Below are positions 334 to 34,151 of a stretch of DNA of 64,000 nucleotides, in pieces. Every line of letters starts with the position of its first letter. Position 1 is the stretch's first letter. The stretch is from Myxococcaceae bacterium (lineage in GTDB: Bacteria; Myxococcota; Myxococcia; Myxococcales; UBA5297). Location: NCBI GenBank assembly GCA_017500825.1, contig JAFVYB010000058.1, forward strand, positions 1 through 64,000. Direction: 5' to 3'. The notes under the pieces were generated by a model. It worked only from the letters and a program-made list of their open reading frames with translations. It had not been told where the DNA came from and ran no database searches. The position numbers and the translations under genes were made by a program.

Positions 334-1587
334 CTACTGGGCCACTTCGATACAGGCATCGCGCACAAACTCACCGCTCTTGCCACTCTCGTCGACAATA
401 AACTTGTCGCTGCCTGCATATGTGCGCGTTTCAGGATCAAAGTCACCAAAAACACCTCCCTCATAGTGACCGCTCGTCTCTGTATCCCAAACCCATTGCC
501 CCGCATCGCAAATCCAGCGGTTGGGGTTATTGATACAGCTCATTGGATTGTCAAAATTATCAGCATAGTTATGACAAATCCACGATTCATGGTCATGAGG
601 TCGACACATGGAAGTCGGCAGTCCGGTATTGCGCCGAATGCGTCCAGCCACTGCCTTAAACACACGTCCGCTGTTTTCTTCGTCGCAATTCATACAATCA
701 TTCAACGCGCCCGTCAGCTCACCCCCCGCGATATGGTGCGGCGCTTCTAAAAGAGCCACACATGTATTCTGGCAAACTTTTCGCGTATATATTGAATTCC
801 AAAACCAAGCCCAGGTGCAGTCCTCGTCAAAACCAATGTCTCGAATACACTGGCGCGCGCGATCTTCGCGCTCACGTTCTGTTCCATCATTGCCGAGCAA
901 GACCATCGCGCATTCGCGCACGAGCACTGTCAATTCAGGTTTTTCCATATAGACGGCGAGATTTTGCATCGTCGAACAAAAACCGCAATTATCCTTATGC
1001 GTGACACGCGCGCCATCTGTTTCAGCAGCAGACCAGCTCTCATATGTCTGAAGCGTGTATTCGCCATTTTCCAATAATTTGAGACCACATACGCGCTCAT
1101 TATTTTCACTGAGTAATGAGGTGACACCGTCATTCTGCGCCGTAGCCTCAATCTCATAAGGCGAGGTCGTGCCATCGGTAATCGCCGAATAATAGTCGCT
1201 ATAGGTGGCACCGCCGACTGAGACACTGTGGCGATAGGGAAACTCGCTTTTATGTGGCGAATTCTCCGCCAAACGCATTGTTTTGATCTTGTCAATTTCA
1301 GCTGTGGTGTAGACGCCGGTGAACACGCCACCCTTGCTTTCATCCTCGATTTCCGGGCGGCATTTTTCGGTCGACAAGCCTGTTCGCGGATAAATCACAC
1401 CATAGAGGACATTTTGTCTCGCGTAATCGAGCTGGTCTTGTGAGGGGGCGTTTTCCGAATTGTTGTCGGCGTTCGCATCGCCTTCATCGTCGTCGACTGC
1501 CGAATTATTCGCGCCACAGGCATACAGACCAGCGCTGAGAAAGGCACAGAGCGCGGCGAAACCAAACCCAAAACGCATTGTTTTCAT
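334..1587 (-). CDS. Cys-rich secreted lipoprotein, unknown function
   Basis: A 417-residue protein with a lipoprotein signal peptide: basic start, hydrophobic core and lipobox LYAC with the lipidated Cys at residue 24. An Asp/Asn-rich acidic spacer follows, typical of exported lipoproteins. About 16 further cysteines are spread over the mature part, several as CxxC or CxxxC pairs (CGFC, CQNTC, CMNC), which suggests a disulfide-bonded extracytoplasmic domain. The start is supported by an AGGAG ribosome binding site 6-7 bases upstream of the ATG. I recognise no family. It stands alone, and its sequence is less GC-rich than the metabolic genes further right. The prediction of a secreted lipoprotein is firm; the function is unknown. 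Confidence 0.8.
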   Translation of the reverse strand: MKTMRFGFGFAALCAFLSAGLYACGANNSAVDDDEGDANADNNSENAPSQDQLDYARQNVLYGVIYPRTGLSTEKCRPEIEDESKGGVFTGVYTTAEIDKIKTMRLAENSPHKSEFPYRHSVSVGGATYSDYYSAITDGTTSPYEIEATAQNDGVTSLLSENNERVCGLKLLENGEYTLQTYESWSAAETDGARVTHKDNCGFCSTMQNLAVYMEKPELTVLVRECAMVLLGNDGTEREREDRARQCIRDIGFDEDCTWAWFWNSIYTRKVCQNTCVALLEAPHHIAGGELTGALNDCMNCDEENSGRVFKAVAGRIRRNTGLPTSMCRPHDHESWICHNYADNFDNPMSCINNPNRWICDAGQWVWDTETSGHYEGGVFGDFDPETRTYAGSDKFIVDESGKSGEFVRDACIEVAQ

Positions 1588-11985: not shown

Positions 11986-12014
11986 AAAACAAAACTCCCC
12001 GCCAAAGCGGGGAG
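11986..12014 (-). terminator. Terminator of the pseudopilin unit
   Basis: On the minus strand CTCCCCGC/GCGGGGAG with a TTTG loop is followed by TTTTGTTTT. It closes the AT-rich gene run ending at 12037 and separates it from lpxK. Confidence 0.85.
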
Positions 12015-12036
12015 AAAACAAAAAAACGCCTTCATT

Positions 12037-12243
12037 CTAGGGAAGTGGAAAATTCAACACATACATAATTCCATCCAAATAAGTCATGAGTGCATCAATC
12101 ATCGTCGAAAAAATCGGCGTTGTTATTACTAGAGCAGTCACCAAGACAGCAGTTAACAATGTATACTCCACCATTGCCTGCCCTCTTGGGGCAACAAACC
12201 TCTTCGACACGATTAACTTTAAAAATAACCATCTCATCAACAC
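12037..12243 (-). CDS. Flp-like small pilin subunit
   Basis: A 68-residue protein. A basic leader (KLIVSKRFVAPRG) is followed by GQAMVEYTLLTAVLV, a Glu at position +5-like spacing and one long hydrophobic segment, the hallmark of Flp/type IVb prepilins. It is the last gene of the AT-rich minus-strand unit that also encodes TadE- and TadG-like proteins, and it ends just before a terminator. Prepilin peptidase cleavage would fall near the RGQ. No Tad ATPase, TadB/C platform or RcpA secretin is present here, so assembly would need genes elsewhere. Confidence 0.75.
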   Translation of the reverse strand: MLMRWLFLKLIVSKRFVAPRGQAMVEYTLLTAVLVTALVITTPIFSTMIDALMTYLDGIMYVLNFPLP

Positions 12244-12266
12244 ATCCTTTCAAAATAAACTCTTAC

Positions 12267-12590
12267 TCAATGTGTATGTCTTTTTGATTCTTCTCTAGCC
12301 GCTTCCTCAATTAATTTTTCCCTTTTCTCTTTAGGCATCTTTTTTACATTCCTTACGACATCCTGTGCAGACTTACAACTTGTAGAAAAACCTTCTTTAG
12401 TCGAGTTACAGGTCTGCCAACACTGTTTCGCGTGTTCTTCATCTTTCACCTGCGAACATTGTGAAAAACATTTTTTTTCCATCAACTCAACAAGCTTTTT
12501 GCAGTCGATCTGATCCGCCTCATCCATCAACCTCTCTATTTCGACTGGTGTTGTATTCAACAAAACACCAATCACCACAAAAATCATCAT
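12267..12590 (-). CDS. Small exported Cys-rich protein, unknown
   Basis: A 107-residue protein starting with a short hydrophobic segment (MMIFVVIGVLL) that could be a signal or anchor. The remainder is hydrophilic and mostly helical, with six cysteines including CFSQC and CWQTC, spaced like a helical-hairpin disulfide fold. The Lys/Glu-rich C-terminus ends in HTH. I recognise no family. It lies between the TadE-like gene and the Flp-like gene on the same strand and shares their AT-rich composition, so it is probably part of the same surface system. Confidence 0.65.
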   Translation of the reverse strand: MMIFVVIGVLLNTTPVEIERLMDEADQIDCKKLVELMEKKCFSQCSQVKDEEHAKQCWQTCNSTKEGFSTSCKSAQDVVRNVKKMPKEKREKLIEEAAREESKRHTH

Positions 12591-12636
12591 ATTTTACTCC
12601 TCTTCTGAAAGTTATGACTCGATAGTCACAACATGG

Positions 12637-13953
12637 TCAAAGCGACTCCTTAGCGCCCAAATAGAAGTATCCTCTACTATCCGCCTGAAGATAATTCTTC
12701 GTTGACGAAGTATAAAGTTTGTCATTCATAAAATAATCACTTGAAGGCTGATATGAATAATCCTCCGAATTATACTCACTTCCTCTATGAGAATAAGTCG
12801 CTGCCATCCATAAAGAAAGCGGCGATGGCCATAGACCAATCGCTGGAATATGCTCCCCCAACTGAGCAATGAGTCCCCCTGCACGATCAGTAAGCTCTTG
12901 AATCTGAGTAAACATCGCATAAGATAATTTTTCATCCAACAATTTTGTCAGATACTCTCCTATCGCTGTATCTTTTTTTAAATTTGCTGTAGCCAAAACA
13001 TCGAGAGCCAATACTCCTTCCAAGTTTCCTCGATAAAATTCCCTCACACGACGATAAAAATCTTTCCCTTTATTTTTATTATCTTCAGATTGCGGCGTAT
13101 AATCATTTACATAGTAGACCTCCAAGTTATGATGTTCCGAATCATAAACATGATCGGCCAACGAACTCCAATCGCCTGCTATCAATGATGCTTTTGCTCT
13201 AAAATTAATTACACCTTCTTCATTTTGAACAGAAGATGCACTGCTTGTCTCTTTAGAGGAACGCGCAGAAATCATTTCCGTCTCAGTGAACTCAGAAAAA
13301 AGTTTTTTGGGTATCAAATAATTAAAAACCCACCCCTTTGCCCAACAAATATATCGACCACCATCTGAAGCACCGCTGGCATCAAATTCTTTTATAAACA
13401 ATTTTAATCCAAAATTTTCAACACCAACATCAAGCCCAGCAATACTGACCTGTGGAATTGGAAAAGACACTCTCCCCTTGTACTGGCAAGAAACTTGTGA
13501 TGGCTTATTGCGTTTAGCTCCATAATAACCTTCTTCGAAATTTCCTTCCTTATAAGAAACATCGTTACCATCTTTATCCTTAGCAGTCGATGTCCCCCAA
13601 CACATATGTGCGAACGGTTGATTATGCTGCCAGTCCTCCGAACGAACATCTAACGCAAGCCTGGCACTTGTATGATCTGCATATTGCACACGATTATAGT
13701 TATCGATAGAACCATTTGCGAAAGCACCACTTACATTTTTCAAGGCAGACGTCTCTCCATTCTTTTTAACACCAAGAGGAGCAGTTGAAAAATCCCAGAC
13801 AGTTGAAATCACCGTCTCTTGAGCATCCAAGAAATGCGCCATAATATCTGAAATAAAAAAAGTATAAAAAATTAAAGGCAAGAAAATTAATAACATAATA
13901 GCAACCTCTACAATAGCAGCACCACTTTCATCAAATTGTTTCATTCGTCTCAT
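12637..13953 (-). CDS. TadE-like pseudopilin with large C-terminal domain
   Basis: A 438-residue protein. The N-terminus, FDESGAAIVEVAIMLLIFLP (from about residue 6), is a TadE-type leader with a transmembrane helix and the conserved Glu. The remaining 400 residues are exported and show no family I know; they are rich in Ser, Asp and Tyr with a few Cys. TadE proteins are usually only 150-200 residues, so this is much enlarged. It is in a minus-strand row with a TadG-like protein (16-base gap) and is clearly AT-rich compared with the flanking lpxK and pyrG genes. Confidence 0.75.
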   Translation of the reverse strand: MRRMKQFDESGAAIVEVAIMLLIFLPLIFYTFFISDIMAHFLDAQETVISTVWDFSTAPLGVKKNGETSALKNVSGAFANGSIDNYNRVQYADHTSARLALDVRSEDWQHNQPFAHMCWGTSTAKDKDGNDVSYKEGNFEEGYYGAKRNKPSQVSCQYKGRVSFPIPQVSIAGLDVGVENFGLKLFIKEFDASGASDGGRYICWAKGWVFNYLIPKKLFSEFTETEMISARSSKETSSASSVQNEEGVINFRAKASLIAGDWSSLADHVYDSEHHNLEVYYVNDYTPQSEDNKNKGKDFYRRVREFYRGNLEGVLALDVLATANLKKDTAIGEYLTKLLDEKLSYAMFTQIQELTDRAGGLIAQLGEHIPAIGLWPSPLSLWMAATYSHRGSEYNSEDYSYQPSSDYFMNDKLYTSSTKNYLQADSRGYFYLGAKESL

Positions 13954-13968
13954 AGATTCCTCCCATTC

Positions 13969-15636
13969 TTAGAAGCTAATAGACTCAAGGTCGGTGCCAG
14001 CCAAAGCTTCGACAGCCCCAACCGTTGCTACATCAGCAGCATCCGTAAGATTCAATCCCACTGGGTGCAACTTAGCACGCCAAAATGGACTCCAAAAATT
14101 TGGTGGTTCTTTCCAGTTTCCCGGATGGTGATAATAAGTTAACGCCTTGGAAACCGCTTTTGCTTGGTCTTGATTTCTCAAATCCACAGACGTCTCATTA
14201 ATATCTAACTTTATCTTAAACTTCAAATCCCACGGATTTGGGGCTGAAGAATTCGTTTCTTCAGGAGTCACAGATAAACTGTCAACCATAAAGCTGGAAA
14301 CAATTGTAGGCTGCCGATAACCATCATCCTCTGCTGAATCAGCATCATAAACAACCATATTAAAAATGTCTTTCATTTCCAGTTTATGATCTCTAGAACC
14401 ATGAACATCATTAAGTCCCATCGTAAATCCCCACCCGTTATGCGCTCCACCTTGCGCATTCGATTCTACTTTTGCTGGACCGATAGGACCCAACAACGGC
14501 GACGCCTTTAAACTAGGTAATAATGGCCAAAAACACCCAGCATCCACCCCTCCAACTGCTAATCTGTAATGATCGAACGAAGCTATAGATTTTCCTTTTT
14601 GATTGCTTCCGCCGCTTGATCCCAAAAGAGATCCTACCAAAGGAAGAGCTCCCGATGGAGGATCTTCATAAAACGCAGTAGCGCCACCTGTTCCCGGAAT
14701 TTGAGCAACAACCCCGTAGACCCAATAATCCAGCTCCTCTTTCAATGCTTGAGTAGCAGCAGGCAGCATCATTAAAGGTGCAACAGCCAATCTCATACGA
14801 TTTCGAATCCAATGTGGTCTCGAAGCATTGACAATCTCAGTGATCTCTGTCTTTCTATTTTCTTCCTGAGATTCTATATTGACTTTACAGGCCGGAACTG
14901 AATTTTCAAGAGATGGAGCGCCCAATAATTCTACCCCCATGAGAGCCAACGAACAAGATGCCCCTTTACTTTGGCCATTATACATATTCCACTTATTCAT
15001 CTGATCATCGCCACCTGCGAAATCACCTGGCGCCCCTATCGCTGCGATAGCCCCCTGCAAGCCTTTCTGAAGTAAAGAAATTGTTTTATTTGAAGCATTA
15101 ATCGCATTAATCGCCTCCACAAAGTCAGCATCCGTATTAGAAATCTTACCTCCCATAGAATCACCGATCCAAGCCATTAGTGCCTTCAGCGAATCCAAAA
15201 GCAATTTTAGATTATGAACCACACAGTGATTTAATTTAATACAATAACACCCAAATATCCCAAAACACACAGTTCCCGCAGCAATCTCTGCCGCCATAGC
15301 CAATGTATATACAGGGATTGTTGCAAAATATAAATCTGCAGCGGCACTAACCTCACTATGATAAGCATGAAGTATAGTCATCGCAACGATATTGCCAACC
15401 ATCGCCCTATTTGAATATGCAAATGTATTGTATGCCCGAGCTACCATAGTTGCATCAGAAAAAGCTCTAGCATCTGCAGCGTGCTGCAGCTGTATCCTAC
15501 TTCTGACTTGCCAAGCCACACTGATAGTCATAAACATACATACTGTTATCAACAAGGCAGTCAACACACCTAAGACTATTGTTTGGCCACGCTGATTTCT
15601 CTTAATCATTCTCCTCACCCTCTCGCTGAATATCAT
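13969..15636 (-). CDS. TadG-like pilus-assembly protein
   Basis: A 555-residue protein. The N-terminus RNQRGQTIVLGVLTALLI and the following hydrophobic stretch match the TadG-like leader, and the next segment (LQHAADARAFSDATMVARAYN) is typical of the 'AADAAALA' region after the helix. Two further hydrophobic segments occur at about 95-130. Thereafter it is a long exported region without recognised domains (no clear von Willebrand A motif seen). An in-frame ATG 10 codons later is an alternative start. The short gaps to its neighbours suggest one transcript. Confidence 0.75.
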   Translation of the reverse strand: MIFSERVRRMIKRNQRGQTIVLGVLTALLITVCMFMTISVAWQVRSRIQLQHAADARAFSDATMVARAYNTFAYSNRAMVGNIVAMTILHAYHSEVSAAADLYFATIPVYTLAMAAEIAAGTVCFGIFGCYCIKLNHCVVHNLKLLLDSLKALMAWIGDSMGGKISNTDADFVEAINAINASNKTISLLQKGLQGAIAAIGAPGDFAGGDDQMNKWNMYNGQSKGASCSLALMGVELLGAPSLENSVPACKVNIESQEENRKTEITEIVNASRPHWIRNRMRLAVAPLMMLPAATQALKEELDYWVYGVVAQIPGTGGATAFYEDPPSGALPLVGSLLGSSGGSNQKGKSIASFDHYRLAVGGVDAGCFWPLLPSLKASPLLGPIGPAKVESNAQGGAHNGWGFTMGLNDVHGSRDHKLEMKDIFNMVVYDADSAEDDGYRQPTIVSSFMVDSLSVTPEETNSSAPNPWDLKFKIKLDINETSVDLRNQDQAKAVSKALTYYHHPGNWKEPPNFWSPFWRAKLHPVGLNLTDAADVATVGAVEALAGTDLESISF

Positions 15637-15645
15637 AAAATCGGA

Positions 15646-16512
15646 TTAACTATTCTCATTCGAAGGCGCAATACAGGTTTCTTCTTCTGGAAGGTCATCT
15701 ATCTTAAAATTCGACTGCATTCTAAATGCATAGTTCGCATACATCGGCAAGAAATAAACTCCTATAGCAGCAGCAAGGTCCAAGATTGACACCGGAATAC
15801 TATTAACCACACCCTCAATGGTTCCAATCTTTCCATTTAATCGAAGCTCTTCCATCACCTTTCTACCCGTAGAAATTTTATATATTACCCAGTTTGCAAA
15901 CGGAATAATAAGTCTATGATTATACTGAACTTGAATCCTCAGCTTTGTCCGTTCAAACATCTCGAGTTCATCAGCCCTCTTCCCATCCCAACTATGCAAT
16001 CGTGATAAATCCGGATTGTCATAAGTATTTCTTGGATCATCAAAATCCACTTCCCCTGCCGAAGTTTTTCCATCATAATTATAATATTTCCCATTAGAAA
16101 GCCAAGGTTTCAGCGGACCACACACAACCACCTTCAAAACAGAAAAATCAAACAATGAACCAATGGCCGAAACAACGCTGTTCAGCAATGATGCAATCTC
16201 ATGATATGCTAATACCTCCAAAGGTTGATCGGGAGCCTTAATATAACCTAATGTCGAAATAACTGGACTCAACGCTATAAGCGCCTCTTTTTCCATTTTC
16301 TTTACATCCATACTGTGCATAGCGCCAGCACGAGCCGCCCGATATGCGGCATATTTCAACATGGATCTCGTTTGAAAAACTTGGGTCATTTGAATCAAAC
16401 CCAGCACAATAAAAATAAAAAGAGGCATCACGATGGCCGTCTCGACCATAGCCTGCCCAGACTGTCTTTTGGTCCATTGTTTAAGGCGCATCATCGCAAT
16501 CTCGCTTTTCAT
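15646..16512 (-). CDS. TadE-like pseudopilin
   Basis: A 288-residue protein with the leader RQSGQAMVETAIVMPLFIFI, a textbook TadE N-terminus with a Glu five residues after the Gly, followed by the hydrophobic helix and a soluble exported domain. The frame is open upstream to 16695, but that part overlaps the preceding gene and has no homology; ATGs at 16512, 16494 and 16491 are all possible, and none has a strong ribosome binding site. It is the first of the Tad-like genes in this unit. Confidence 0.75.
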   Translation of the reverse strand: MKSEIAMMRLKQWTKRQSGQAMVETAIVMPLFIFIVLGLIQMTQVFQTRSMLKYAAYRAARAGAMHSMDVKKMEKEALIALSPVISTLGYIKAPDQPLEVLAYHEIASLLNSVVSAIGSLFDFSVLKVVVCGPLKPWLSNGKYYNYDGKTSAGEVDFDDPRNTYDNPDLSRLHSWDGKRADELEMFERTKLRIQVQYNHRLIIPFANWVIYKISTGRKVMEELRLNGKIGTIEGVVNSIPVSILDLAAAIGVYFLPMYANYAFRMQSNFKIDDLPEEETCIAPSNENS

Positions 16513-16619
16513 AAAAGGTGACACAGAAACAGGCCTTTGACGAAGGAGAGACATTGTTCGAGTCAGCGGTGACCAAGGGGAAAGTTCACGCACCTTCGAC
16601 AACGCCTCCCTTTCAGTGG

Positions 16620-17534
16620 TTACTGATACTCCTGGCAGAGGGAGAGACTTTCGAAAAAGCCCTCCTGCGCACCAGGAGTGATGGTCACTGAGCACCTTCG
16701 AGCATCCTTCTCAAAGGTCGCGGAGAGACTTTCGTCGCGCTGTGACCTGCCCTGCGTCATTTTCCATCCCGAGAGCGCGAGCTCTCGATTGTAATGGCGC
16801 ATCACACCATCTAAAGACTCGCCCTTGACGGTGATTTTGCGCGTTGTCTGAATCGTGCTGCCTTCGGATTGCCGAAAGACAATGGGATTACCCTCGTGCT
16901 CGGGTTCGCGCCAGTCGTCCCATGGCGCCGGCGAACGACGGCCATCGAGTCCCAGAAAACTCTCGTAAACTTTGCGCGCATCGGTGACCGCTGCGAAGAC
17001 GACCGTCTGTCGACCGATCTCCACCAAGGTGATTGTCCGCATAAAGCCGTCTTCAGCGCGATAAGCAAAGTAAATAGAATTGGCCTTCAGCTGATTGACC
17101 ATAGGGACGATATTTTTGGACGCTAATTCTTGCGCGTAATACTTGGCAACTGTCTCCAAATCCGCGACGAGATTCAAGGTCGCCATGCGCGCTTCACTGG
17201 CGCCAAGCTTGATGTCCTTGCCGAGATTTTCGATGGGCATCTTTCCCTGATATTGGGCAAAGGCGAACAATTCTTCGGCAGGCTTGGTCATGACATCTGC
17301 AACCGCAACAGCGTAATCCTGCTTATTCTCCGGCGGATGCGGTCCCAAAAGCTCAGGCGGCTTGTTGGCGTATTTGAGGATCATCTCGTCAAAAGGCGTG
17401 GAACTGTGCTCGCCATCCGAACCCATGATGTCCTCCAAAGTCCAATTCTCCTCAGCGGACGCGTCCATTGCCGAGAGCGACATATCGCCCGGTGTCTGGA
17501 GCATCATGAGGAGAATGAATCCTTCGGTGACCAT
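16620..17534 (-). CDS. Unrecognised protein upstream of the pseudopilin genes
   Basis: A 304-residue protein. The N-terminus MVTEGFILLMMLQ is mildly hydrophobic, so export is possible but not certain. The C-terminal 80 residues (RKITVKGESLDGVMRHYNRE onwards, with SGW) form a compact domain containing two Cys and resemble small alpha/beta modules of exported proteins, but I cannot name the family. The ATG has an AAAGGA site. It begins 45 bases after the pyrG stop and precedes the TadE-like gene on the same strand, with a composition intermediate between the GC-rich and AT-rich parts. Confidence 0.65.
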   Translation of the reverse strand: MVTEGFILLMMLQTPGDMSLSAMDASAEENWTLEDIMGSDGEHSSTPFDEMILKYANKPPELLGPHPPENKQDYAVAVADVMTKPAEELFAFAQYQGKMPIENLGKDIKLGASEARMATLNLVADLETVAKYYAQELASKNIVPMVNQLKANSIYFAYRAEDGFMRTITLVEIGRQTVVFAAVTDARKVYESFLGLDGRRSPAPWDDWREPEHEGNPIVFRQSEGSTIQTTRKITVKGESLDGVMRHYNRELALSGWKMTQGRSQRDESLSATFEKDARRCSVTITPGAQEGFFESLSLCQEYQ

Positions 17535-31032: not shown

Positions 31033-31632
31033 ATGATTCGACGCCTTCTGGTCATTTCACTCTGCGCGGCGGGGATTTTCGCCTGCGGGGATGACAAGCC
31101 GAAGCGCTCCCTGCCCCACCAGGCGCCATCCACAGCCAAGAACGCACTCTCCCAGGCCGAGGCCGCCAACCTGCCAGCGGAAAAGATCGAGCTTCCCTTC
31201 GAATACGCCTATTCGCCGGTGGGCAAACGCGATCCCTTCCGCTCCTACCTGATCGACGAGGCCAAGACCGCCGAGAAGAAAGTCGACGAGCCGGTCAGGC
31301 CCATCGAAAACCTGCGCTGTGGACCGCTCTGCAAATGGGATTTGGAGCAGCTGCGCCTGGTCGCCATCGTCAGCGGCATCTCCAACCCCATCGCCATGGT
31401 CGAGGCGCCTGACGGCAGGGGTTACACGGTGCGGCGCGGCACGTTCATCGGCAAGCGCAGCGGCAAGGTCACCAACATCCGCCCGAGCGAGATGGTGATC
31501 ACCGAAATCTACAAGGACAACGCCGGCGTCCCCCAGCCGCACGAAATCTATATCGCCCTGCCCAAGTCGCCCGAGGAGCAGATGGACTTGGAGGGTGAGA
31601 ACAACCTGATGAACGCGGGAATCGATCAATGA
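31033..31632 (+). CDS. pilP: Type IV pilus lipoprotein PilP
   Basis: A 199-residue lipoprotein with lipobox IFAC (lipidated Cys about residue 17), then a disordered linker, GKRDPFRSYL (the PilO/PilN-interacting segment), LRLVAIVSG and ADNA-like alternating beta-strands of the C-terminal domain, including the GTFIGKRSGKV loop. I prefer the ATG at 31033, which follows GAGG at 6 bases; an in-frame ATG 4 codons earlier lacks one. Its stop overlaps the frame preceding pilQ. Confidence 0.93.
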   Translation: MIRRLLVISLCAAGIFACGDDKPKRSLPHQAPSTAKNALSQAEAANLPAEKIELPFEYAYSPVGKRDPFRSYLIDEAKTAEKKVDEPVRPIENLRCGPLCKWDLEQLRLVAIVSGISNPIAMVEAPDGRGYTVRRGTFIGKRSGKVTNIRPSEMVITEIYKDNAGVPQPHEIYIALPKSPEEQMDLEGENNLMNAGIDQ

Positions 31633-31673
31633 CACGCGCCATCCTGAAGAAATCGCTTGAAGGAGAATCAAAA

Positions 31674-34151
31674 ATGAACGGTCGCACCTGGTTCGCGAGA
31701 GTCCTGCTGTCGCTGACCTTCCTCCTCCCCCAGGCCGCGATGGCAGAGGGCACGGATACAGGCCGCCGCTCTGTGCCGGAGTCGGACAAGGCGTCGCCAA
31801 CCGCTGCGACCAAACAATCCCGCGCGGGGAACCTGCCGCCCGGCGCTGCGCGTGTCGCTACCGACGAACCCAGTGCCGTGGCTGCTTATCGCGACGAGAA
31901 GAAGGTCAACCAACCGGCGCAACGCGTGCGCGACATCACCTTCTCGCAGAAGGCCGATCGCTTCGAGGTGCGCCTCAAGGCTGACGGCGAGATCGGTCGT
32001 TACACCCTGCTCGAACTGGAAAATCCCCCGCGTCTGGCGATTGACCTCGACGGTTTCCGCCGCGGTGTGAAGGAACGGATCACGCCCAATGAGGCGCCCA
32101 TCAGCAAGGTGCGCTCCGGTCGCCATGACAGCCACGTGCGCCTCGTCCTCGACAGCAAGGACGGCTCTCCCCTGCCGCGCTACGACGTGAAGCGCCTGCG
32201 CGACGGCCTGATCATCTCCCTGCAGACGCCCGCGATGGCCGCCAAGAAGTCCCCTGCGCCATCCGCCAAGGTGATGGCTCAGGCGGCGCCAGTGGCAAAG
32301 CCAGCCGAAAAGCCCCAGGCCGAAGCCAAGGCCCCCGGAAAGCCCATCGCGCTGAGCGACATCCGCGACATCTCCTACAGCGGCGACAAGCAAAGTGGCC
32401 GCGTCCTCATCGCCGTCGGCAAGGGCGTCACTCACTCGCTGGAACAGCCCGATCCACGCACGGCCATCCTCACCATCAAGGGCGCGCGTCTGCCCAAAAA
32501 GCTGGCACAAAACCTCGACACCTCGTCTCACAACGGGCCGGTGACGATGGTCAGCGCCTTCAGCGCCCCTGGCAAGGACGACACGGTGCAGGTCGTCGCC
32601 ACGCTCGACGACACTGTCGCCGGAACCGTTCACAGTGATCGCTCCGGCATCCTCGTCTGGGAGATCAAGCGCGCCAGCGCCTCGCCCAACGACCCGATGG
32701 AGCTCGTGGTCGACGGTCGGGCCGTCAGCCTCAAGGCGCCCGAGGTCGAGAGCGCCGTGACCACCGCCCGCGCCAGCGCGCTCGCTGCCGAAGCACCTGA
32801 TCCCAACGCCGCCGCAGGAGCGCCGACACAGAAGCCGCGCCGCGGCAAATACAGAGGCCAGCGCATCTCCTTCGAGTTCAAGGACATCGACATCCACAAC
32901 CTGCTGCGAATCTTCGCCGACATCTCCAAGAAGAACGTCATCGTCGGCGACAACGTCAGCGGCAAGGTGACGATCAAGCTGCGCAACGTGCCATGGGATC
33001 AGGCCCTCGACATCGTCCTCAAATCCAAGGGGCTCGACAAAGAGGAATACGGCAACATCATCCGCATCGCGCCGGCCAAGCTGCTCGAAGACGAACGTCG
33101 TCAGGCGGCCGAGAAGGCCAAGATGCAGGTTCAGCTCGAACCGCTCAAGGTCCGCATCATCCCCATCAACTACGCCACGGCCTCCGGACTCGCCGACCGC
33201 GTCAAGGATGTGCTCTCCGATCGCGGCAAGTTGAGTGTCGACGCCCGCACCAACGTCATCATCGTCAAGGACATCGAGGAAGCCATCGCCCGCGCCGAGG
33301 GTTTGGTGCGCCGCCTCGATACGCAGACGCCCCAGGTTCTGATCGAGAGCCGCATCGTCGAGGCCAGCGTCAACTTCTCGCGCGAGTTCGGCATCCAGTG
33401 GGGCGGCGATCTCAACTTCGGCCCCAACACCGGCAACTCGACCGGCCTCGCCTTCCCCAACACCATTCGCGTCGCGGGCGCAGCGGGCAACGAAGGCACC
33501 AACGGCCTGGGCACCTCATCGCCCAACTACGCCATCAACTTGCCAGCGGCGATTGGCATGGGCGCCGGCGGCGGCCTCGGCTTCACCTTTGGTTCGGCTG
33601 GTGGCGCGGCACTGCTCAACCTGCGTCTGAGCGCGATGGAATCGAGCGGCCAGTCAAAGACGATCAGCGCCCCGCGCGTCATCACTCTCGACAACAACAC
33701 CGCGACCATCTCCCAGGGCATCTCCATTCCCTACAGCCAGACCTCCGCTTCCGGCGTGAACACGACCTTTGTCGAGGCCAAGCTGGAGCTTAAGGTCACC
33801 CCGCACGTGACAGCCGACGGCAGCATCCTGCTCGACATCAACGCCAGCAATAACCAGGCCGACTCCAGCATGACGGGCGCCAACGGCCAGCCTGCCATCA
33901 GCAAGAAGGAGGCGCAGACGCAGGTGCTCGTCAAAGACGGCGACACCACCGTCATCGGCGGTATCTACACGCGCTCCCAGGGCTCGAACGAATCCGGCGT
34001 CCCGCTCTTCTCGCGCATCCCCGTTCTCGGCTGGCTCTTCAAAAACCGCTCCGAGTCGGACACGCGCACAGAGCTGTTGATTTTCATCACGCCGCGCATC
34101 GTCAACCGCAACCAGAGCATGGCCGCCGACGACCTGCCTGCCGCGCTGTGA
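31674..34151 (+). CDS. pilQ: Type IV pilus secretin PilQ
   Basis: An 825-residue outer-membrane secretin. Signal peptide to about residue 24 (LLPQAAMA). Two AMIN domains (about 80-165 and 225-315) bind peptidoglycan. An STN/N0-type domain begins at RISFEFKDIDIHNLL (about 398), then a Secretin_N domain, and the secretin pore domain from about 560 with VPLFSRIPVLGWLF and the terminal beta-rich ITPRIV. The start is chosen at 31674, where AAGGAG stands 8 bases upstream; the frame is open 15 codons earlier. It forms the pilus exit channel. Confidence 0.97.
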   Translation: MNGRTWFARVLLSLTFLLPQAAMAEGTDTGRRSVPESDKASPTAATKQSRAGNLPPGAARVATDEPSAVAAYRDEKKVNQPAQRVRDITFSQKADRFEVRLKADGEIGRYTLLELENPPRLAIDLDGFRRGVKERITPNEAPISKVRSGRHDSHVRLVLDSKDGSPLPRYDVKRLRDGLIISLQTPAMAAKKSPAPSAKVMAQAAPVAKPAEKPQAEAKAPGKPIALSDIRDISYSGDKQSGRVLIAVGKGVTHSLEQPDPRTAILTIKGARLPKKLAQNLDTSSHNGPVTMVSAFSAPGKDDTVQVVATLDDTVAGTVHSDRSGILVWEIKRASASPNDPMELVVDGRAVSLKAPEVESAVTTARASALAAEAPDPNAAAGAPTQKPRRGKYRGQRISFEFKDIDIHNLLRIFADISKKNVIVGDNVSGKVTIKLRNVPWDQALDIVLKSKGLDKEEYGNIIRIAPAKLLEDERRQAAEKAKMQVQLEPLKVRIIPINYATASGLADRVKDVLSDRGKLSVDARTNVIIVKDIEEAIARAEGLVRRLDTQTPQVLIESRIVEASVNFSREFGIQWGGDLNFGPNTGNSTGLAFPNTIRVAGAAGNEGTNGLGTSSPNYAINLPAAIGMGAGGGLGFTFGSAGGAALLNLRLSAMESSGQSKTISAPRVITLDNNTATISQGISIPYSQTSASGVNTTFVEAKLELKVTPHVTADGSILLDINASNNQADSSMTGANGQPAISKKEAQTQVLVKDGDTTVIGGIYTRSQGSNESGVPLFSRIPVLGWLFKNRSESDTRTELLIFITPRIVNRNQSMAADDLPAAL

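Follow-up and report, generated by a model that had tools for sequence, protein, structure and literature searches.

A predicted KilM-KilN-KilL "Tip" module with AT-rich, C-poor codon usage between pyrG and lpxK, very probably the Tip operon of a Kil-type Tad pilus, in a Myxococcaceae bacterium

Six co-oriented minus-strand genes flanked by pyrG and lpxK in a draft genome of a Myxococcaceae bacterium (G000; 2.9 Mb in 125 contigs, 89% complete) very probably constitute a Tip operon for a Tad (type IVc) pilus of the Kil type, the predicted content being of a kind already known, i.e., a KilM-KilN-KilL "Tip" minor-pilin module with a KilK/KilO-type Flp adapter. The Kil (Tad) pilus of Myxococcus serves prey recognition and killing by contact (PMC12075869, PMC8460266), with an interchangeable tip, and M. 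xanthus has four scattered KilL-KilM-KilN clusters, each representing a trimeric minor-pilin "Tip" of this pilus (Herrou 2025, PMC12075869), in which KilM is short, KilN large and KilL extended, all being homologous to TadE, TadF and TadG, with KilK and KilO as Flp adapters and KilP as the major pilin (PMC12075869). The AT-rich, C-poor codon usage of the Tip genes, shared with KilB, KilH and KilG, is a genus-specific trait. The features are collected in Table 1; "the window" denotes the whole 64,000-nucleotide stretch analyzed (G000:C22:1-64000).

Table 1. Features of the predicted Tip operon and its 3' flank (window coordinates; a slash marks leader cleavage).
Feature	Coordinates	Strand	Basis
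P304	16620..17534	-	profile matches in 83/102 Tip loci; without Pfam or NCBIfam family
KilM/TadE1 (TadE-like minor pilin)	15646..16494	-	Pfam TadE 2.4e-13; class III leader RQSG/QAMVE
KilN/TadG (large TadG-like minor pilin)	13969..15636	-	alignments A1, A2; conserved C-terminal motif
KilL/TadE2 (extended TadE/F-like minor pilin)	12637..13953	-	leader SG/AAIVEV; profile and position
Small exported six-cysteine protein	12267..12590	-	cysteine pattern C-x11-CxxxC-x11-CxxxC-x9-C
KilK/KilO-type Flp adapter pilin	12037..12243	-	RG/QAMVEY ... YVLNFPLP; match to M. xanthus KilK
Terminator-like hairpin	11995..12014	-	8-bp stem, 7 GC pairs, T tail; between Flp gene and lpxK

All six genes proposed by the initial annotation at 12037-17534 exist with intact reading frames, and its recognition of TadE-, TadG- and Flp-like proteins, far larger than classical TadE, was borne out by the Pfam TadE match of KilM and by matches to the M. 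xanthus Kil pilins: KilM matched KilM4 (E 7e-25, 28% over 319 columns), KilN also matched (E 6e-12), and the Flp protein matched KilK (E 2e-12, 41% over 61 aa), the two having a VLN-P-P C-terminus in common. The KilL assignment, the weakest of the three large-pilin homologies, would depend mainly on position and profile, the single-sequence match to KilL4 being weak (E 4e-4) and the profile being positive, in the same position, in 95/102 Tip loci; KilN and KilL match Pfam Tad/TadE below threshold only. Adjacent KilM, KilN and KilL homologues and the Flp adapter are all present, and all four pilins show class III leaders with a cleavable glycine and a hydrophobic helix (RQSG/QAMVE, QRG/QTIVL, ESG/AAIVE and PRG/QAMVEY, respectively). 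KilN ends in the conserved motif YYHxPGxWxEPPNFWxPFWRAKL, and the residues that it retains among those invariant across 57 family members include YxHxxxxWxExP and PxW near the C-terminus; KilN had no match in the PDB, and its single-chain model reached a pLDDT of 75. The KilM start in the mechanical ORF list (16695) falls within P304, the likely start being the ATG at 16494 or 16491. The terminator-like site at 12014-11995 is the putative end of the six-gene unit, such sites being no more numerous in the region than in shuffled sequence.

Neither a Tad ATPase nor a platform protein nor a Tad secretin is encoded near the cluster, as the initial annotation had stated, and its suggestion of assembly by a Tad machine encoded elsewhere is probably right, the genome search having located such a machine on contigs C84, C56 and C42. 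The predicted Kil apparatus is present but scattered, with KilA, KilC, KilF, KilB, KilG and KilH all found: KilA-KilC-KilF with FHA protein(s) on C84 (L018), KilB-KilH-KilG with FHA and FHA-TPR proteins on C56 (L016), and a candidate KilP-type major pilin, an 87-aa Flp scoring 30.1 bits, i.e., just under the Pfam cut-off of 32.2, on C42. KilB, KilH and KilG are 63-68% identical to their M. xanthus counterparts, and a second Tip module lies on C55 (L017). FHIPEP, the core export protein of T3SSs, was not found in the incomplete drafts of G000 and its congeners G001 and G002, the whole genus sample, and was found in G003, G004 and the tested Myxococcaceae; the needleless T3SS* appears to have been lost in the genus, since absence from three genomes makes an assembly gap an unlikely cause.

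The description of the cluster as an "orphan" found no support, as it is syntenic in both congeners (pyrG-P304-KilM-N-L-Flp in G002; KilN-KilL-Flp-lpxK, a partial module adjoining lpxK, in G001) and its genes belong to the regular complement of the kil/tad locus in Myxococcaceae, where the Tip module adjoins KilB-H-G; the latter is an outcome that the initial annotation had itself named as refuting. M. xanthus kil cluster II (L107) reads KilM-KilN-KilL-P304-like-Flp-KilB-KilH-KilG-FHA, each gene matching one in G000. The KilN profile detected two copies in G000, one (partial) in G001 and three in G002, and 41/60 relatives were matched; modules detached from KilG/H are common, these genes adjoining the module in 28/102 surveyed loci (some places fetched twice, many loci clipped at contig ends). 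In G001 the ends of contigs C157 and C94 fall within KilN and within the 3' portion of pyrG, and the bin, although rated 96% complete, yielded neither KilH nor TadE; AT-rich DNA may be dropping out of assemblies such as this one. Myxococcus-type kil loci also occur in a record labelled Comamonas sp. KCTC 72670 (L104, L108), which is probably mislabelled, since it includes a KilN sharing 87% identity with the one in G033. KilN-family Tip modules detected by sequence in records bearing the names Hydrogenedens, Bdellovibrio, KSB1 and Gammaproteobacteria (L157, L169, L172, L182) would extend the range published from sequence data; these draft records may be contaminated.

P304 and the C55 protein P264 constitute a single family found in 83/102 Tip loci, with an M. 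xanthus member at 4554-5480 of L107. Sequence searches of Pfam, NCBIfam and the PDB with P304 returned nothing; its model (pLDDT 76) is predicted to comprise two tandem alpha/beta domains, for which Foldseek gave only weak single-domain PsbP/DcrB/Flpp3-like matches, the top-ranked hits having a TM below 0.2. It is a conserved, probably periplasmic partner of the Tip module. The M. xanthus locus numbers mxan_4656 and mxan_4657, expected from the gene order to cover the P304 homologue, are absent from the main text of PMC12075869 and PMC8460266. The six-cysteine protein, noted initially as Cys-rich and exported, lacks a significant Pfam match and seems confined to the genus: the pattern, screened in 18,387 ORFs, recurred only once, in the corresponding module of congener G002, and no counterpart was seen in M. 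xanthus or other loci outside the genus among those examined.

The shift to AT-rich composition proposed initially was confirmed by the GC and codon-usage check: GC is 0.39-0.44 over 12001-16500 versus ~0.65 on either side, and GC3 is 0.30-0.48 (0.30-0.40 in the three large pilin genes) versus ~0.8 outside, including lpxK and pyrG, with P304 intermediate (GC 0.54). At four-fold sites the Tip genes of the window have C 0.09, G 0.24, T 0.41 and A 0.26 (housekeeping genes: C 0.57, G 0.32), and T rises at synonymous sites where C falls. Among 905 gene-like ORFs from 1.4 Mb (48% of G000), mechanically picked and perhaps including antisense shadows, ranks 1-5 for lowest four-fold C are held by Tip genes, rank 6 by KilH and rank 8 by KilB, KilA-C-F on C84 being far less affected (C 0.43). 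The Kil core genes of G002 are likewise C-poor (C 0.10-0.17), those of G004, of the same family, are not (C 0.53-0.61), and among 80 Tip loci a C deficit above 0.2 was seen only in this genus, with the G002 module L054 as an exception lacking it, and in L138 (Deltaproteobacteria Tb.RUG.239; Tip genes C 0.16, neighbours 0.40). In the same 1.4 Mb, GC stays below 0.46 for 2.5 kb or more in only three places: the window cluster, the C55 Tip cluster and C85, where a D12-class (Dam-type) adenine methyltransferase lies next to an AT-rich protein with DUF6996/6997/7226 domains (L292, 2204-4340), probably a restriction-modification pair. Another lower-GC stretch of the window (334-1587) encodes a Cys-rich lipoprotein-like protein without a Pfam match, whose counterpart on C9 of G002 is ~35% identical.

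The initial annotation attributed this composition to a different origin or relaxed constraint. Import of the Kil set (Tips and KilB/H/G) from an AT-rich relative into the ancestor of the genus, with codons still unadjusted, would agree with the extremity of the composition, with the similarly AT-rich C85 methyltransferase locus and with the existence of AT-rich Myxococcota carrying Tip modules (L135, L138, L139, L170); we consider it unlikely, since those sampled loci have C > G at four-fold sites, opposite to the G >> C seen here, the congener G002 carries both modules at the same loci, and the relatives outside the genus are GC-rich. In the KilN tree the window copy groups with two G002 modules (100/96) and then with the GC-rich G005 module L064 (99/94), and the C55 copy groups with G002 and then with GC-rich modules of the same family (100/100); on synteny and tree together, the AT-rich state is most simply placed inside the genus, where it would have arisen in two Tip lineages. 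Relaxed constraint, with a cluster in decay or hardly in use moving toward mutational equilibrium, would account for the 25-37% identity of KilM, KilN and KilL between congeners and for the exchange of C for T, and is improbable nonetheless, given the intact frames and the retained leaders and KilN invariants. The AT-richness is not random decay, and fast evolution as its sole cause was likewise rejected, because other poorly conserved, unrelated genes keep a GC3 of 0.81-0.87, and KilH is C-poor despite 85% identity between G000 and G002. A C-avoiding, T-ending synonymous code common to the scattered Kil genes (Tips and KilB/H/G), setting them apart from the remaining genome and upheld by selection or targeted mutation, e.g., for translation control, is a tentative alternative that we put forward with considerable reserve.

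Regarding function, the type IV pilus assembly envisaged initially could draw on the PilQ-like type IVa secretin with AMIN domains encoded in the window at 31599-34148; a role of the pilins as type IVa minor pilins was nevertheless rejected and may be deemed next to negligible in probability, their leaders being of the Flp/TadE type, none of them giving a Pfam N_methyl match, and the genome encoding a full Tad apparatus. The main functional rival is that the Tips cap an ordinary adhesion Tad pilus for surface or host attachment, of no use against prey, which is a serious contender at somewhat below even chances: TadEFG tips are also present in non-predators (PMC12075869), and an altered lifestyle would fit the small genomes of the genus (2.9-3.0 Mb) without a detected T3SS export gene, against which stand the closeness of the Kil core to that of Myxococcus and the Kil-type motifs in Flp and KilN. 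Prey killing by this system is plausible because of that closeness, and we lean slightly toward it; since the T3SS export gene was not found, the killing/lysis mode of M. xanthus, where the needleless T3SS* acts together with the Tips as a partner system outside the Tip itself, cannot be transferred whole.

With the Tip operon reading, and with the assembly, adapter and prey roles taken from M. xanthus genetics, KilA on C84 would be the prepilin peptidase cleaving KilM, KilN, KilL and Flp after the leader glycine, upon which the three minor pilins would form a trimer with KilN at the extremity, its base priming the filament; Flp would link the trimer to the KilP-type filament (the C42 candidate), KilF, KilG/H, KilB and KilC would extrude it, and the variable outer part of KilN might contact the target cell, P304 being a conserved, probably periplasmic partner. 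Common to this system and the M. xanthus Kil Tip complexes (KilL/M/N 1-4) are the gene trio with its relative sizes and order, the class III leaders, the Flp adapter, several paralogous scattered Tip clusters and the same core apparatus. Unlike in M. xanthus, however, the Tip genes lie apart from KilB-H-G, and P304 precedes KilM instead of following KilL; the six-cysteine protein is additional, codon usage is C-poor, two Tip modules were found versus four, and the export gene of the T3SS*, the Kil partner in Myxococcus, was not detected. Classical TadE/TadF/TadG have a homologous N-terminal pilin region and the same expected place in the Tad pilus, whereas the proteins described here are much larger, KilN carries its C-terminal motif, and there is no tadA/B/C linkage.

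As an almost constant neighbour of KilLMN, P304 is a candidate fifth part, and a lineage with small genomes that has Kil Tip operons but no detected T3SS would allow Tip function to be studied separately from the T3SS*. The Kil codon signature, if selected, would offer a new handle on the regulation of a contact weapon and a route to its missing parts.
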